Source of the DNA: Cloacibacterium sp. TD35
GTDB taxonomy: Bacteria > Bacteroidota > Bacteroidia > Flavobacteriales > Weeksellaceae
DNA length: 64,000 bases
Assembly (NCBI RefSeq): GCF_028864635.1
Contig: NZ_CP104850.1
Location: 874,001-938,000, forward strand
Direction: 5' to 3'
The first letter of the stretch is position 1, and each line of letters begins with the position of its first letter. Positions 10,895 to 48,924 of this stretch are shown here, piece after piece. The notes under the pieces were generated by a model. That model saw only the letters and a list, made by a program, of their open reading frames with translations, was not told where the DNA came from and made no database searches. The position numbers and the translations under genes were made by a program.

Positions 10895-10951
10895 GTAAGG
10901 TAAAGTCGTGAAATTGCTAGTAAAAATAAACTTTTACGATTTTACATTTTT

Positions 10952-15922: not shown

Positions 15923-15930
15923 GAGAAAAA

Positions 15931-15954
15931 TTACAATTTTACGATATTACAATG
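15931..15954 (+). repeat. 8-bp periodic array abutting the mfd start codon
   Basis: Three 8-bp units, TTACAATT, TTACGATA and TTACAATG, run directly into the mfd ATG, which is the last three bases of unit 3. It matches the other 8-bp arrays of this window in period and in its TTAC core. Confidence 0.5.
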
Positions 15955-18900
15955 CTGAAAAATATTAGTCAAACGCTTATTCCTGATTTTTTAAGAAAGA
16001 ATTTTGGAAAAGAAATTTTTGAAAATTTTGACCAAAGCCAACATATTTCTGTGAAAGGTTTTGCAGGTTCTGTTCCGTCTATTTTGGTGGCAGAATTATT
16101 TCTTACGCAGAAAAGAGATGTTCTTTTTATCATTGAAGATAAAGAATCTTCAAATTATATCACCTCAGAATTAGAGGAAATGATAGGCGAAGAAAACGTT
16201 TTGTATTTCCCTGAAACGCATTTAGAACCTTATCAAGTTGAGAAAACCCAAAATGCAAACATCGTTTTACGAACTGAAGTGCTCAATAGTTTAAATTTTG
16301 ATAAAAAGAAAAAAATTATCGTTGCAACCGCTTCTTCGCTTTCAGAAAAAGTGTTGAAAAAGGAAGATTTCAAAGCGATTTCTCACACGATAAAAGTTGG
16401 CGACCAACTGGATTTTGATTTTACGGAAGAATTATTGAATCAGTTCAATTTTAATTATACAGATTTCGTTTCGGAACCTGGAGAATTTTCGGTTCGTGGC
16501 GGAATTTTAGACGTTTTTTCTTATGCTTACGAAAAGCCTTTCAGAATTACTTTTTTCGGAAATGAAGTAGAAAGCATTAAGGAATTTGACATCGAAACTC
16601 AACTTTCCACAGGAAAAGTTAATGAATTTGAATTGGTTTCTAATATGAATTTTGCAGTTTCAGGAAGCAAGGTTTCTCTATTGGATTTATTGCCAAAAGA
16701 TAGTTTCATTGTCACTAAAAACGCTTACTTAACGATAAAAAAACTCAAAGATTTCTACGAAAAAGCAGAGCAGAAATTTGAAACGCTAAGCAAAGAAATC
16801 AAGCATCAAAAACCAGAAATTCTTTTCGTTTCTGATGATGTTTTTCTAAGAGATTTAGAAAAATTTAAAGTCATCGATTTTACATCTCAACAACTTAACG
16901 ATTTTACGACTTTACAACTCAATCAAACCGCACAACCTACCTTCCATAAAAATTTCGAACTTCTTGCCGAAGATTTAAAAGAAAAAAAAGAAGAAGGTTA
17001 TGAAACATGGATTTCTTTTTCAGGGGAAAAACAAAAGGAAAGGTTAGAAAATATTTTTGAGGAACTGAATCACGATTTACCGTTTAAATCTTTCAAATCT
17101 GAGCTTCATGAAGGCTTTGTAGATTATGAACTGAAAGTTTCGGTGTATACAGATCATCAGATTTTTGACCGTTATCAAAGATATAAAGCCAAAAATTCTT
17201 TTGCCAAATCTGAGCAATTAACCCTAAAAGATTTAATGTCTTTGAAAGTGGGAGATTACATTACGCACATTGACCACGGAATCGGGAAATTTATGGGATT
17301 GGTGAAAGTTACCAATGACGGAAAAACACAAGAATGTTTCAAATTGACGTATAAAAACAACGATTTGCTCTACGTTTCTATCCATTCGCTTCATAAAATT
17401 TCAAAATATAACGGACCAGATGGTAGAGAAATCGTTCTCAATAAACTTGGTTCTCCAACTTGGAAAACTTTAAAGCAAAAAACCAAGGCAAAAGTTAAGC
17501 AAATTGCATTTGATCTCATCAAATTATATGCACAAAGAAAGACAGCAAAAGGTTTTTCGTTCTCGCCAGATTCTTATTTGCAGAATGAATTAGAAGCAAG
17601 TTTCATCTACGAAGACACTCCAGATCAGGAAAAAGCTACGCAAGATGTAAAGAATGACATGGAAAATGATGGCGTAATGGACAGATTGATTTGTGGAGAT
17701 GTAGGTTTCGGAAAAACGGAAGTGGCAATTCGTGCGGCGTTCAAAGCGGCAACCGATGGAAAGCAAGTCGCGGTTTTAGTTCCTACCACCATTTTGGCGT
17801 TTCAGCATTACAGAAGTTTCAAAGAAAGGTTGAAAGATTTTCCTGTAAGTATTTCTTATTTGAACCGCTTCCGTTCTACAAAACAAAAAAATGAAACCAA
17901 AGAAGGTCTCAAAAATGGTAAAATTGATATCGTCATCGGAACGCATCAATTGGTTGGCAAAGATATAGAATTCAAAGATTTAGGGTTATTGATTATTGAC
18001 GAGGAACATAAATTCGGGGTAAATGTAAAAGATAAACTCAAAACGCTAAAAGCCAATATTGATACCTTGACTTTAACGGCAACACCCATTCCGAGAACTT
18101 TGCAATTTTCTTTGATGGCGGCAAGAGATTTATCGGTGATTAAAACGCCACCACAAAATCGACAACCAGTTGATACACAGATTATTGGATTTTATGAAGA
18201 AATTCTTCGTGATGCGATTTCTTACGAAATTCAAAGAGACGGACAGGTTTATTTCATCAATAATAGAATTGAAAATCTGAAAGATATTGCAGGTTTAATT
18301 CAGCGTTTGGTTCCAGATGCGAGAGTCATTACAGGTCACGGGCAAATGGACGGAAAAGAATTGGAAGCCAGAATTCTCGATTTTATGGAAGGGAAATATG
18401 ATGTTTTGGTTTCTACCACGATTGTAGAATCTGGAGTTGACGTTCCGAATGCGAACACGATTTTTATAAATGATGCGCAGAAATTTGGGATGGCAGATTT
18501 GCACCAAATGCGTGGAAGAGTGGGGCGAAGCAACCGAAAAGCGTTTTGTTATCTGATTACGCCACCCTTTGATATGATGACTTCGGATGCTAGAAAACGT
18601 TTGGAAGCAATTGAACAATTCTCTGATTTGGGAAGTGGTTTTCAAATTGCGATGAAAGATTTAGAAATCAGAGGAGCTGGAGATTTATTGGGAGCCGAAC
18701 AAAGTGGTTTTATTAATGAAATGGGCTTTGAAATGTATCAAAAATTGATGCAAGAAGCCTTGGAAGAATTGCAAAACGAAGATGATTTCCAAGATTTATT
18801 TGAGAATGAAGAAGACCGTAAAAAATTATTCAAATCTCAGAAAGAAGTCAACATTGATACAGATTTTGAGTTGATGTTGCCAGATTCTTATGTGAATTCT

Positions 18901-19928: not shown

Positions 19929-19984
19929 GTAAAATCGTTGATTTGTAAAGTTGTTTTACTTTAAAAGTTTTATGACTTTACAAT
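19929..19984. repeat. 8-bp periodic array between pth and the GNAT-like gene
   Basis: Seven 8-bp frames fill almost the entire gap between two convergent genes: GTAAAATC, GTTGATTT, GTAAAGTT, GTTTTACT, TTAAAAGT, TTTATGAC, TTTACAAT. The first and last units are close reverse complements of mfd array units, and the array could fold on itself. Confidence 0.6.
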
Positions 19985-19985
19985 T

Positions 19986-21110
19986 TCAAAGTTTCTTTCT
20001 AAAAATACAATACTCTTTATATAGGTTAAAACCTTCCAATTTCTCAATTTCGCCACGCATTTTCAGGTTGTCTTTCATAATGAGATGAGAATCCACCGTT
20101 TTGAATCCTAATTTCAATGCAGAACCGAAAAGCATGGTTGCTAAAACTGCATCCAGACCTTTGTTTTGATAATTGGGATGAATCGCGCCCAATAAAAGTT
20201 GAAGCCTTTTTGAAGTCTTCATTGCCCATAAAATTCTTGCCCAACCAAAAGGTAAAATTCTTCCTTTAGAATTTTTTATCGCTTCGCTTAAGTCTGCCAT
20301 TGCAATTACAAAAGCCAGCACTTCGCCGTTTTCATTGGTAATCATCTTGATGAGTTTTGGATTGAGAAGTGGTAAAAAACGTTCGGCAAATTCAGTCATT
20401 TCGTCTTCGGTGAGTTTCGTGAAGCCATAGATTTCAGTGTAGGTTTTGTTGATGAGGTCAAAAACAGGTTTTACATAAGGATTTACCGATTTTGTTGAGG
20501 TGAATTCTACCGTTTTTATCTTTAAATTTCTAGAAACTCTTTCATTGAAATTTTTATATCTGTTCAGAATTTGTGCAGTAATCGGAACGTCATATTGTAC
20601 TAAATCTACAAAGTTTTCGTACTGGTTTTCCTTGATGAAATCTACCATAAAAGGAAAACTGTGATTGGTGACAAGCATTGCTTTTTCTTCGAAACCTTTG
20701 GTAAGAAAACCTTGAGGTTCTTTGTCTGAAAAAGCCATTGGTCCGATGATTTCTGTGCAGTTTTTAGATTTTGCCCAAGTTTCTACCGCAGTAATTAAAG
20801 CATTGAAAACTTCTTTATTTTCAAAACATTCAAAAAAAGAAAATCTGGCATCATTTTTCCCGTGAAATTTATTGTAATCGGTAGGAATTACGCCCATAAT
20901 TCTACCAACAGCTTTTCCGTTTTCGTATGCAAGGAAAAGTACCGCTTCATTGTGTTTAAAGAGTGAATTTTTGTCTTTGTCAAAGAATTTTTCATCATCC
21001 ATATACAAAGGATGAAGCCAATTTTTATGGTTTTTATGAATTTTTTCGGGAAGATAAATAAAAGATTTTAAGTCTTCTCTGGTCTTGACTTCTTTAATTG
21101 AAACGGACAT
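19986..21110 (-). CDS. GNAT-like acyltransferase, function unknown
   Basis: A 374-residue soluble protein common in flavobacteria. The N-terminal part (about 1-180) has YENGKAVGRIMGVIP and ARFSFFECFENKEV, and the C-terminal part has GAIHPNYQNKGLDAVLATML, a pattern close to the GNAT acetyl-CoA loop (R/Q-x-x-G-x-G/A). This suggests two GNAT-like lobes and a family of large predicted N-acyltransferases with unknown substrates. It overlaps the end of the upstream PAP2 gene by 17 bp in another frame, so the pair is translationally coupled. No catalytic residue can be assigned with confidence. Confidence 0.6.
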   Translation of the reverse strand: MSVSIKEVKTREDLKSFIYLPEKIHKNHKNWLHPLYMDDEKFFDKDKNSLFKHNEAVLFLAYENGKAVGRIMGVIPTDYNKFHGKNDARFSFFECFENKEVFNALITAVETWAKSKNCTEIIGPMAFSDKEPQGFLTKGFEEKAMLVTNHSFPFMVDFIKENQYENFVDLVQYDVPITAQILNRYKNFNERVSRNLKIKTVEFTSTKSVNPYVKPVFDLINKTYTEIYGFTKLTEDEMTEFAERFLPLLNPKLIKMITNENGEVLAFVIAMADLSEAIKNSKGRILPFGWARILWAMKTSKRLQLLLGAIHPNYQNKGLDAVLATMLFGSALKLGFKTVDSHLIMKDNLKMRGEIEKLEGFNLYKEYCIFRKKL

Positions 21111-26226: not shown

Positions 26227-26232
26227 TTTTTA

Positions 26233-26295
26233 GTTTCGAGTTTCGGGATACGAGTTCCGTGGTAAATTTCGTAACTCGAAACTCGTATCTCGTAT
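26233..26295. repeat. 7-bp periodic array, nine units
   Basis: Nine strict 7-bp units: GTTTCGA, GTTTCGG, GATACGA, GTTCCGT, GGTAAAT, TTCGTAA, CTCGAAA, CTCGTAT, CTCGTAT. The left and right halves are roughly reverse complements, so the array could fold into a hairpin. It fills the gap between two genes and its last base is the first of the glycosyltransferase stop codon. Confidence 0.75.
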
Positions 26296-27464
26296 CAAAT
26301 ATAATCAATAATTTCCATAATTTTATTTACAGAATTTTCTAGGTTGAAAGGCATTTTATACTCTTTCAAGTTTTCTTGATATTGTTCAAAAAAATCAGGT
26401 TCAGTCAATGCTTTTTTCATGCCCTCGTAAATTCCTTCTTCAGAATTTTCTACGATGAGGCCAAGATTTCCATTTTCTAACATTTCTTGAACTCCCGAAA
26501 CATCAGTTGCAATTATATTTTTTTTCAAGGTGATGGCTTCAAATAAAACGGTAGGGAAACCTTCGTATCTAGAACTCAATATGTAAAAATCTGCTGCTTT
26601 AATAGAAGGGTAAGGATTATCTGTAAAGCCCAACATTTCTGCAGTTTCGTTAACACCTAATTCCGTTTTTAAATTCTTAATGTTTTCAAAATCATATCCA
26701 TCACCAATGATTTGAATCCGATGTTTAAACCCTTCATCAAGCAATTTTTTATGGACTTTCAACAATCTATCAAACCCTTTTTGTGGAAAAACGGTTCCAA
26801 CAGAAACAAAGGTTGGTTGCTGTTTGTCAGTTGTCGTTTGTTGGTCTTGATTCTTGATTCTTGGATCTTGGCTCTTTAATAAGATTTCTTCAGTATCCAA
26901 AGGATTATAAATCCTCACAATTTTTGATTTTTCGACTTCGTTTTGGACTAAACTTTCAAAATCTTTTTGGATGTGTTCAGAAATCACCATGATTTTATCA
27001 AAGCCAAAAAACTTGCGAATTTCTTGGTCTGTGTAATTGTGAAATTTAGTTTTTCTTAAGTCATTGTGAATCCAAACAATTTTTTTAGAAGATTTGATAG
27101 GAGAATCCAGAATGTCATCTCTCATTCCGTGAATTGCAGCAAATTCTACATCATATTTCTTATTTTTAAGAACCGTGGAGTAGAGAATTTTCGGAAATTT
27201 CTTCAATAATTTTTGATACAAAACACGATACGCTTTCTTCGGAATATCCTGAATTCTGTTGGTGGTAATCATTTCACCTTTGTTCAGATAAAGTACACTA
27301 ATCCAATCAGGAACTTCTGCAAGATATTTCCCAGAGTATAAATTCAGCAGTAAATCGATTTCATACTTATCTTTTGGAAGATTTTTAAGAAAAGTCACGA
27401 GAACTTTTTCTGCGCCACCGTGACGTAGAGAACCAATTCTGATGAGGATTTTTTTCTTTTCCAA
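26295..27464 (-). CDS. Glycosyltransferase family 4, with an in-frame heptad-repeat insert
   Basis: A 389-residue GT-B fold transferase. The N-terminal domain has RHGGAEKVLV near residue 14. The C-terminal domain carries the nucleotide-sugar EX7E motif in SRYEGFPTVLFEAI (about residue 308). Residues 198-218 (SQDPRIKNQDQQTTTDKQQ and PT) are encoded by nine 7-bp repeats in the linker just before the C-terminal Rossmann domain. It starts with TTG, the only in-frame option, abutting the upstream gene. Donor and acceptor are unknown. Confidence 0.9.
   Translation of the reverse strand: MEKKKILIRIGSLRHGGAEKVLVTFLKNLPKDKYEIDLLLNLYSGKYLAEVPDWISVLYLNKGEMITTNRIQDIPKKAYRVLYQKLLKKFPKILYSTVLKNKKYDVEFAAIHGMRDDILDSPIKSSKKIVWIHNDLRKTKFHNYTDQEIRKFFGFDKIMVISEHIQKDFESLVQNEVEKSKIVRIYNPLDTEEILLKSQDPRIKNQDQQTTTDKQQPTFVSVGTVFPQKGFDRLLKVHKKLLDEGFKHRIQIIGDGYDFENIKNLKTELGVNETAEMLGFTDNPYPSIKAADFYILSSRYEGFPTVLFEAITLKKNIIATDVSGVQEMLENGNLGLIVENSEEGIYEGMKKALTEPDFFEQYQENLKEYKMPFNLENSVNKIMEIIDYI
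26811..26873 (-). repeat. 7-bp periodic array inside a glycosyltransferase gene
   Basis: Nine 7-bp units on the plus strand: GGTTGGT, TGCTGTT, TGTCAGT, TGTCGTT, TGTTGGT, CTTGATT, CTTGATT, CTTGGAT, CTTGGCT. They make 63 bp, exactly codons 198-218, so the frame is preserved. The encoded stretch is rich in Gln, Thr, Lys and Asp. Confidence 0.75.
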
Positions 27465-28380: not shown

Positions 28381-28382
28381 TG

Positions 28383-28440
28383 GAGATACGAGATACGAGA
28401 TACGAGATACGAGGTTTTACTCGAAACTCGAAACTCGCAT
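28383..28440. repeat. 7-bp periodic array, gagatac and ctcgaaa units
   Basis: Four perfect GAGATAC units and one GAGGTTT (28383-28417), a 2-bp spacer, then CTCGAAA, CTCGAAA and CTCGCAT (28420-28440). Both unit types also occur, mostly as reverse complements, in the array at 26233. It occupies nearly all of the 64-bp gap between two glycosyltransferase genes. Confidence 0.8.
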
Positions 28441-28444
28441 CAAT

Positions 28445-29611
28445 TTATTTTATTAATTTTTTATATTGTTGTTCAAAAACTTCGGTGACTTGTTGATAGA
28501 TTTTCTTTTCATCAAATTTTTTATCGGCAGACTGAGTTCCTTCTATAATTTTTTTGACCAATTCTGGTTCGGTAAGAAACCTTTTCATGGCTTCGAAAAT
28601 TTCATTTTCATCAAAGTTAACTAAAATTCCGTCTTTTCCATCATCTATCATTTCTGGAATCCCGCCCACGTTGGTAGAAATAATCGGTTTGTGCAATCCC
28701 ATTACTTCGCCAATCGTTAAAGGATAACTTTCAGATTTTGAAGGAAGTACAAAATAATCAGCCGCTTTTACATATGGCCAAGGATTTTTTTGAGAATCTA
28801 GAAGCAGAAAGGTTTTTTCTACACCTAATTCTTTTGCTTGATTTTTCAAATTTTCCATCTCGTTTCCGCCACCAATTACAGCGATGGAATGTATCAAATT
28901 TTCGTCTAAAAGTCTGCGATGGACTTTCATCAGTTCTGCATAACCTTTTCTATGGTGTAGTCTTCCAATAGAAATAAAAGTTGGTCTTATCTCGAAATCT
29001 GCTTGAAATTCTTCTGCTTTTTTTCTTACTTCTGGAAGTTTTATTACATTGTAAATCACAGAACTTTTCGGATAAGAAACGCCGTACAAATCTTCTATCA
29101 CTTGTCTGGTTTGCGCAGCTCCAAAAATCATCCAGTCGAATTTTTTCATCAGATTGATGCGTTTCATGACTCTGTTTTGGTCTGTGTCATAACTTACATC
29201 TGTATGAAACCAGCCGATTTTTCTAGTTTTTTTGTTGGGAGAATTCAGCACCATTTCAAATTCTGAATAACCTGGCGAAACTTCTATGTCAAAGTCATCC
29301 TTTACTTTTAAAGCATATAAAACGGAAGGAAATTTGTCATAAATTTCTAGTTTCAGCCTTCTTAATCCGAGTTGAATTTTTTGGATAAAAGGATTTTTCG
29401 ACATTTGTTCACGGCCTTTTTCTACCACGATGAGTTTAATGTCTTTCGGAATTTCTGTAACCAATTCGCCTTGATACAAATTGAGCATCAAGGTAAAATC
29501 AAATTTATCCTTGGGTAAATTTCTCAATAAATCGAGGATCACTCTAGGAACTCCGCCCATTTCTAATGAGCGAAGCCTAAAAAGAACTTTTATTTTTTTT
29601 TGATTCTCCAT
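28445..29611 (-). CDS. Glycosyltransferase family 4
   Basis: A 388-residue GT-B transferase closely similar in layout to the one at 26-27 kb: N-terminal RLRSLEMGGVPRVILDLL, linker, then PTFISIGRLHHRKGYAEL and the EX7E motif SKSESYPLTIGEVM (about residue 296). It has no repeat insert in the linker, where its paralogue has 21 extra-like residues. The start ATG overlaps the stop of the next-upstream gene by 1 bp, so it belongs to the same operon. Confidence 0.92.
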   Translation of the reverse strand: MENQKKIKVLFRLRSLEMGGVPRVILDLLRNLPKDKFDFTLMLNLYQGELVTEIPKDIKLIVVEKGREQMSKNPFIQKIQLGLRRLKLEIYDKFPSVLYALKVKDDFDIEVSPGYSEFEMVLNSPNKKTRKIGWFHTDVSYDTDQNRVMKRINLMKKFDWMIFGAAQTRQVIEDLYGVSYPKSSVIYNVIKLPEVRKKAEEFQADFEIRPTFISIGRLHHRKGYAELMKVHRRLLDENLIHSIAVIGGGNEMENLKNQAKELGVEKTFLLLDSQKNPWPYVKAADYFVLPSKSESYPLTIGEVMGLHKPIISTNVGGIPEMIDDGKDGILVNFDENEIFEAMKRFLTEPELVKKIIEGTQSADKKFDEKKIYQQVTEVFEQQYKKLIK

Positions 29612-47905: not shown

Positions 47906-47916
47906 TTTTTGTGAGG

Positions 47917-48066
47917 GTTATGGGGTTATGAGGTTATAAAGTTATGAGGTTATGAGGTTATAAAGTTATGAGTGATTTGTAATTAGTATTTGGTATTTGG
48001 TATTTCTTAATACTTTTTTTTATTCTTTTACTTCATTATCAAATTTTCAAATTATCACATTATCAC
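47917..48066. repeat. Three tandem periodic arrays between wzt and wzm
   Basis: 47917-47972 is seven 8-bp units (GTTATGGG, GTTATGAG, GTTATAAA, GTTATGAG twice, GTTATAAA, GTTATGAG). 47986-48006 is three 7-bp units (GTATTTG, GTATTTG, GTATTTC). 48035-48066 is four 8-bp units (ATTATCAA, ATTTTCAA, ATTATCAC twice). Together they fill most of the 170-bp gap between two genes that are usually adjacent. Confidence 0.8.
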
Positions 48067-48075
48067 ATCACTTTT

Positions 48076-48924
48076 TTACACAGTGTCCATGAATCCTTTT
48101 TCTACTTTGTTAAAAATAACGGTGCCTACCGCGAGTAAAATTAGGATAATAACGGTACTGTACAACAACATAATAGGATGGAATTCTCCCACACCCATCC
48201 ATGCGTATTTGAATCCTTCGAAAATGCCCGTTAGCGGATTGTATTTAGCATAAGGCTGAATTTTAGCAGATAACATAGAGGTGGGGTAGATAACTGGTGT
48301 AGCGTACATATACAAGCTAATCCCAAAAGACAAAAGCATGCTGAGGTCTCTGTATTTGGTAGTTAATGAAGAAAAAATCATTCCTACTCCCAATGCAAAA
48401 AGAGACATCAGTAGAATAAACACTGGGGTAAATAATACCCAAAGGTTAGGGGTTACTTCACCTAAATACCAATAGTATAAAAATACGACCAGAAAGAGTA
48501 AAAACTGTACCCCAAATTTCATGAGGTTAGAAATAACGATGGTGATAGGCATGACCAATCTAGGGAAATACACTTTCCCAAAAATACCTGCATTGCCCAC
48601 AAAAACATTAGAGGTTCCGCCGAGTGAACTCGAAAAATAATTCCATAAGGTTACCCCAGCTAAATAAAATAAAATTTTAGGGGCACCATCTGTAGAGAGA
48701 TTGGCGATATTACCAAAAACGATAAGGTAGACAACCGTAGTGAATATCGGGTTAATGAAAAACCAAAGAGGCCCTAGTATAGTTTGCTTAAAGCTAGATA
48801 CAAAATCTCTTTTTACAAACATATAGACCAAATCTCGGTAGTCCCAAACCTCTTTTAAATTTAGTTTAAATAAAGAATGCTCGGAGCTAATGATATTAGT
48901 CCATTCTGTGTTTTTATTTTCCAT
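48076..48924 (-). CDS. wzm: Polysaccharide ABC transporter permease Wzm-like
   Basis: A 282-residue ABC-2 permease with six membrane helices that exports the finished glycan with Wzt. The family start is DYRDLVYMFVKRDFVSSFKQTILGPLWFFI-type: the KRDFVSSFKQTILGPLW segment and ATPVIYPTSML are visible. The frame opens at a TTG at 48948, but I chose the ATG at 48924, which gives the usual MENKN- start. A TATTTTTG box lies 39 nt upstream of it. The 170-bp spacer after it is made of repeats. Confidence 0.93.
   Translation of the reverse strand: MENKNTEWTNIISSEHSLFKLNLKEVWDYRDLVYMFVKRDFVSSFKQTILGPLWFFINPIFTTVVYLIVFGNIANLSTDGAPKILFYLAGVTLWNYFSSSLGGTSNVFVGNAGIFGKVYFPRLVMPITIVISNLMKFGVQFLLFLVVFLYYWYLGEVTPNLWVLFTPVFILLMSLFALGVGMIFSSLTTKYRDLSMLLSFGISLYMYATPVIYPTSMLSAKIQPYAKYNPLTGIFEGFKYAWMGVGEFHPIMLLYSTVIILILLAVGTVIFNKVEKGFMDTV

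Follow-up and report, generated by a model that had tools for sequence, protein, structure and literature searches.

The octamer array at positions 19929-19984 occupies the spacer downstream of pth in Cloacibacterium sp. TD35, whose genome of 2.595 Mb forms one contig. It is one of several short-unit arrays in the 64-kb stretch of DNA analyzed here, referred to as the window throughout:

19929..19984, no strand assigned: octamer inverted-array element between pth and the convergent downstream gene (19986-21110, minus strand).
15930..15953, plus strand: octamer array ATTACAAT-TTTACGAT-ATTACAAT in the mfd leader, a single arm running into the mfd ATG at 15952.
16876..16923, plus strand: octamer array inside mfd, in a variable linker (DFTSQQLNDFTTLQLN), a single arm.
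10900..10945, no strand assigned: octamer inverted-array element between dnaB and rnhA (both minus strand, names taken from the translated ORFs), fold z -1.84.
26227..26295, no strand assigned: ORF-less heptamer element with a GATACGA/GTTTCGA arm and an ACTCGAA/ACTCGTA arm, RNA fold -22.5 kcal/mol, z -3.59.
28381..28445, no strand assigned: ORF-less heptamer element with an arm of 4 x GAGATAC and an arm of 3 x ACTCGAA-type units, fold z -3.77.
47906..48076, no strand assigned: octamer arrays GGTTATGA/AGTTATAA and CATTATCA/AATTTTCA in one spacer.
26811..26876, minus strand: about nine heptad units of two families inside a glycosyltransferase gene.

The 5' arm of the pth element reads directly as GTAAAATC (19929-19936), GTTGATTT (19937-19944), and GTAAAGTT (19945-19952), and is followed by an AT-rich centre (19953-19973) and the inverted unit GACTTTAC (19974-19981), which forms the 3' arm. 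The degenerate octamers of this element and of related arrays have the consensus RAYTTTAC, and the RNA fold predicted for 19929-19984 has an energy of -16.8 kcal/mol (z -3.93). The sequence-only reading had proposed that the 8-bp arrays in the pth spacer, in mfd, and in the mfd leader have a unit in common, which is confirmed by direct reading and by enrichment relative to controls. With up to two mismatches, RAYTTTACRAYTTTAC has 12 matches in the window versus 2.7 expected, a number that 0 of 100 shuffles reach. The pattern RAYTTTRC x3 has 19 matches in the TD35 genome with up to three mismatches, versus 4 for the backward control, and 87 versus 1 across seven Cloacibacterium genomes when at most one mismatch is allowed. 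What the same reading had missed are the inverted pairing at 19929-19984, the copy at 10900-10945, and the conserved codons in the mfd array.

The units of the mfd array are GATTTTAC (16876), ATCTCAAC (16884), AACTTAAC (16892), GATTTTAC (16900), GACTTTAC (16908), and AACTCAAT (16916). Because the first GATTTTAC encodes conserved codons (IDF), the array is only partly foreign. A clean insertion is not supported; the linker length resembles that of Chryseobacterium. The same Mfd linker holds a different insert of ~25 aa (..KNKIDSSASLRSAQNDK..) in G001 and G003 (L116/L117; G and L numbers are our handles for genomes and loci), which looks like another dispersed repeat, and CAACCGA heptads in the Cloacibacterium MAG Go_UH_bin_117 (L038). 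A second Mfd linker of this MAG carries GAGCCGA/AGAATCA heptads and then GACTTTAC octamers, and the presence of several arrays in its linkers suggests that flexible coding linkers are entered by arrays repeatedly. For the mfd-leader array no hairpin of its own is predicted, and G004 has ACAACTTTACAACTCAACGATTTTACGCC at this position. Neither is a stable hairpin predicted for 47906-48076, the G001 counterpart of which has other unit numbers. The G003 counterpart of 28381-28445 has 5 x GAGATAC, and the heptads at 26811-26876 read AGAGCCA, AGATCCA, AGAATCA, AGAATCA, AGACCAA, CAAACGA, CAACTGA, CAAACAG, and CAACCAA.

The genomes were covered by pattern searches and targeted stretches, plus a single sample of 200 kb for each of four of them, and sites were compared by reading. 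Of the seven Cloacibacterium congeners, six have an array element downstream of pth. Octamer pairs with differing unit numbers are found in G000, G001, G002, and G005, a heptamer pair from another unit family in G003 and G006, and an ordinary terminator-like hairpin in G004; terminator-like hairpins also lie downstream of pth in many Chryseobacterium loci. These hairpins at the equivalent position, together with the predicted fold of the window element, are what one would expect if the elements were host terminators or hairpins stabilizing mRNA 3' ends, whose arms consist of slipped units by chance. An intrinsic terminator, however, has a G+C-rich stem followed by a T-run, whereas the stem here is AT-rich and no T-run follows 19981. 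Moreover, similar elements are found within coding sequence and between genes that share a direction and are apparently co-transcribed, their unit families are common to unrelated loci, and, as described below, an IVP ORF can lie between the arms. We therefore regard the terminator explanation as unlikely.

The arrays fall into several unit families built on one plan. At most RAYTTTAC sites in the TD35 genome, minus-strand units are followed by an AT-rich centre and then by plus-strand units, all within short spacers, and the same inverted plan is common to the families ACTCGAA/GATACGA, AAATCTA, TTTATAAC/CTCATAAC, ATTATCAC, and CAACYRW. The last of these is enriched in the genus, with 12-50 matches per genome versus 2-11 for the control. 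In the spacers of the four 200-kb samples, period 7 was observed 26 times (5.7 expected) and period 8 was observed 17 times (7.0 expected), and periods 9-12 were also above shuffles. Unit number varies between species at sites other than pth as well.

The earlier suggestion of a family of spreading, STRR-like repeats holds in part: one unit recurs at many loci, in either direction and within spacers, a leader, and coding DNA, the arrays turn over from species to species, and some sites are empty in relatives. The family is thus dispersed in a manner comparable to the cyanobacterial STRRs. Vertical conservation at the same loci without sharing of units would have spoken against this suggestion, but units are common between loci, and even at pth, where most congeners are occupied, unit numbers have changed and two species have the heptamer family. 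The suggestion is incomplete in that it overlooked the inverted-pair (stem-loop) layout, the fact that several families follow one plan, and the fact that this plan is also that of the IVP genes.

We tested whether such arrays accompany genes for a four-helix-bundle protein, the 23S rRNA intervening-sequence protein (IVP, S23; family PF05635). Genes of this family are present in all seven Cloacibacterium congeners, with four in the TD35 genome and 3-13 in the others. A TD35 IVP scores 131.5 bits against PF05635 (curated cut-off 33.8) and matches PDB entry 2gsc with an E value of 1.9e-18. At all 29 Cloacibacterium PF05635 genes inspected, which are the best-scoring ones, a unit array is seen by eye just before the ATG and an inverted counterpart just past the stop codon. 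The units are mostly 7 bp long, in some cases 8 or 9 bp, and differ by locus while being common to both arms. An arm score of at least 16 is reached by 26 of these 29 loci versus 16 of 167 control short ORFs. For own partners the mean match score of the arms is 21.7, compared to 11.0 when partners are swapped, and the rank exceptions are mostly orthologous loci.

The architecture extends throughout the phylum. PF05635 is present in 193 of 247 sampled Bacteroidota genomes, and for 30 Bacteroidota loci the arm match is 17.3 with the own partner and 10.2 with swapped partners (18/30 at or above 16). Autocorrelation of the flanks in this sample is 0.41/0.38 for period 7 and 0.34/0.31 for period 8, compared to 0.24-0.30 for other periods. 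Duplex energies between 5' and 3' windows of 100 nt are -37.6 for own partners, -21.9 for swapped partners, and -26.9 further out, against a high background. Arms at the same site also tend to match within a species: the scores for the own partner and for the partner from another species are 17.2 and 9.6 at HACD/thiolase, 22.3 and 15.0 at nuoC/D, and 18.7 and 13.2 at the paaJ-like site, and the own partner is the better match at most sites tested. In two within-genus Cloacibacterium sets, same-site arms match their own partner no better than each other's. At 53 of 56 Bacteroidota loci, the IVP gene and its upstream neighbor share a strand, and at most Bacteroidota IVP loci the 5' arm has G>C and the 3' arm C>G, a skew that would limit pairing inside one arm. 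While the arms change quickly, the IVP itself is under purifying selection, with dN/dS values of 0.02-0.18 in nine pairs. Two IVP genes of G006 (G006:C15:91163-91480 and G006:C11:258657-258971) have a premature TAA, which suggests that decay of ORF-bearing elements is under way. The idea that units of a length not divisible by three supply stop codons in all frames of the 5' arm was rejected, there being no excess over shuffles (2.62 vs 2.63).

These data bear on the explanation that the arrays are plain STRR-type tandem repeats, that is, direct arrays that spread or expand by slippage and have no link to a protein. Degenerate 7/8-bp units in several families, their presence on both strands, the changes in unit number between species, and the single arms at 15930 and 16876 would all fit such repeats. 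On the other hand, intergenic arrays are mostly inverted pairs, and PF05635 genes are bracketed by the same unit families, with each arm matched to its partner, making this explanation improbable.

No IVP gene is present in the 64-kb window, and in none of the genomes read does an IVP-bearing element occupy the position of a window site. The connection between the two forms instead comes from junctions elsewhere, and RAYTTTAC, CAACYRW, and ACTCGAA arrays are found both with and without an IVP ORF. At the recJ/nadD junction, TAGGGAT arms flank an IVP ORF in G002 and G006, and G001, G003, G004, and G005 have an ORF-less ACTCGAA hairpin; the TD35 genome has a chimera without an ORF, in which the left arm is of the ACTCGAA kind and the right arm is identical to the IVP-element kind. 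The HSMT/metH junction has an IVP with CAACYRW arms in G002 and ORF-less octamers in five species, neither form being found there in TD35. HACD/thiolase has a spacer of ~20 bp in G000 and G004 and unrelated IVP elements in G001 and G005, and it is also occupied in two further Bacteroidota genomes. Since forms alternate at junctions and the unit families are the same, the window arrays are most simply the ORF-less form. No preference of ORF-less elements for co-directional junctions was seen.

Two further observations concern HACD/thiolase. In several genera (L260, L277, L192, and L208), IVP elements with different arms occupy this junction, which would be either a recurrent target or the site of an old insertion with rebuilt arms. 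In G003, G006, and G002 (L247, L249, and L250), the spacer is filled by a different repeat (CCACGAAGTGGCGAAAT..).

Reading three junctions at which some genomes lack the element or carry a different form revealed no target-site duplication, with spacers that have diverged, and transposition is therefore not proven. The dispersed intergenic hairpins, and the Y1 transposase genes found in six of seven congeners, might suggest REP/MITE-like elements moved in trans by a Y1 (RAYT) or other transposase. However, the TD35 genome has 0 Y1_Tnp matches, arm sequences and arm ends vary by locus with no fixed terminal tag or conserved end, and no target-site duplication was seen at the empty and occupied sites read, leaving this explanation highly improbable. 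A Y1/RAYT transposase was thus rejected as the mover in TD35, as was a reverse transcriptase: PF00078 has 0 matches in this genome and 1 in G002 only, which also sets the elements apart from diversity-generating retroelements.

Array-bracketed IVP genes were found in the four phyla sampled. A tblastn search of plasmids with the IVP gave matches mostly in cyanobacteria, and inverted short-unit arrays are seen in most IVP flanks read from plasmids of cyanobacteria, Azospirillum, and Gemmatirosa, for example, GGGAGTA..TACTCCC in Nostoc edaphicum, AAAAGCT..AAAGCCA in Pseudanabaena, and GGGTGTA..TACACCC in Calothrix; one plasmid locus read (L291) has no arms. On three cyanobacterial plasmids (L290, L294, and L299), IVP genes with short-unit arrays lie at junctions of CRISPR-Cas clusters (cas6/cas4 and cas10/cmr3).

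Taken together, we propose that the arrays are probably the arms of small stem-loop elements related to rRNA intervening sequences (IVSs) and located at the junctions of protein-coding genes. The full form comprises, in this order, a 5' arm (G>C) made of degenerate tandem units of 7/8 bp and lying just past the upstream stop codon, an IVP/S23 (PF05635) ORF, and, directly ahead of the following gene, an inverted 3' arm (C>G). The window copies are best read as ORF-less forms of such IVS-like elements, residing in mRNA rather than rRNA, with a short AT-rich loop, in addition to single arms entering coding sequence. The proposal takes as observed the architecture common to the family, the potential of an element's own arms to pair, unit turnover, alternation of forms, and purifying selection on the IVP. 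By analogy with the 23S IVS, the mRNA arms may pair and the stem be cut by RNase III, in which case an insertion would split the transcript with little harm. Slippage would change unit number and copying between arms would preserve complementarity, which is the simplest proposal for arms that are locus-specific yet matched. The IVP, putatively a distant relative of the reverse transcriptase accessory protein Avd (its match to bAvd is weak and below the cut-off), might help to copy or insert elements at new junctions, and the ORF-less copies may be products of deletion or recombination, moved in trans or by recombination. If the proposal holds, transcripts should be split at operon junctions that are conserved (fad, nuo, metH, and recJ/nadD).

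Published work treats the S23/IVP protein separately from the heptad repeats of Beggiatoa, cyanobacteria, and Xanthomonas, and neither has an agreed explanation. The only earlier link between IVP and heptads that we found in the open-access literature is that of the Coxiella heptads; one published behind a subscription may have escaped us. In the 23S IVS of Coxiella, which RNase III excises, two to three GACAGAT heptads precede the S23p start, their copy number varies between strains, and an RNase III site lies at the first heptad repeat (PMC4990558). The present elements resemble the 23S IVSs with an S23p ORF (Coxiella and Leptospira) in having an inverted-repeat stem around a PF05635 ORF, as the IVP-bearing relatives do and the window copies do without the ORF, and they resemble the Coxiella IVS in having heptads of variable copy number directly before the ORF (PMC4990558). 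Unlike the 23S IVSs, they are numerous in a genome and are found at the ends of protein-coding genes or between them; the 7/8-bp units of their arms vary from locus to locus, and forms lacking the ORF are common. All copies inspected are at protein-gene junctions or in coding linkers, and none is in a 16S or 23S rRNA helix; from this location, the elements may work like IVSs but are not rRNA IVSs.

With the cyanobacterial STRRs, such as GGGGA(C/T)T in Nostoc, the elements have in common degenerate short tandem units of several families, mostly intergenic and dispersed, here with periods of both 7 and 8 bp, and arrays of the STRR type flank IVP genes on cyanobacterial plasmids. STRRs are described as direct arrays, and only a few inverted pairs were found in the case of the GGGGA(C/T)T repeats of Nostoc 7120 (PMC4692102), whereas the window family is mainly 8-bp and inverted. 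The TAACTGA heptads of Beggiatoaceae likewise differ in having one fixed unit in direct orientation; they lie immediately ahead of start codons, occur in Cyanobacteria and Bacteroidetes as well, and were proposed to be regulator binding sites (PMC4679880). The GGGAATC heptads of Xanthomonas resemble the present elements in forming inverted pairs, 70 in Xcc and 75 in Xac, and were read as G-quadruplex repeats in a paper in which the term S23 is absent (PMC4692102). An S23-type protein (XCC0516, PDB 2gsc) exists in Xanthomonas. IVP genes within arrays, and ORF-less copies alternating with them in sister species, offer a common frame for both puzzles, in which heptad repeats and rRNA IVSs look to be tied to one element type. 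More tentatively, and with somewhat less than even confidence, we suggest that STRR-type heptad/octad repeats and rRNA IVSs form one widespread class, a stem-loop with tandem-unit arms that colonizes transcripts at junctions, in which the IVP would act on the arms to maintain or spread the element, and the arms would take shape anew at every site, with no fixed terminus to be copied from.
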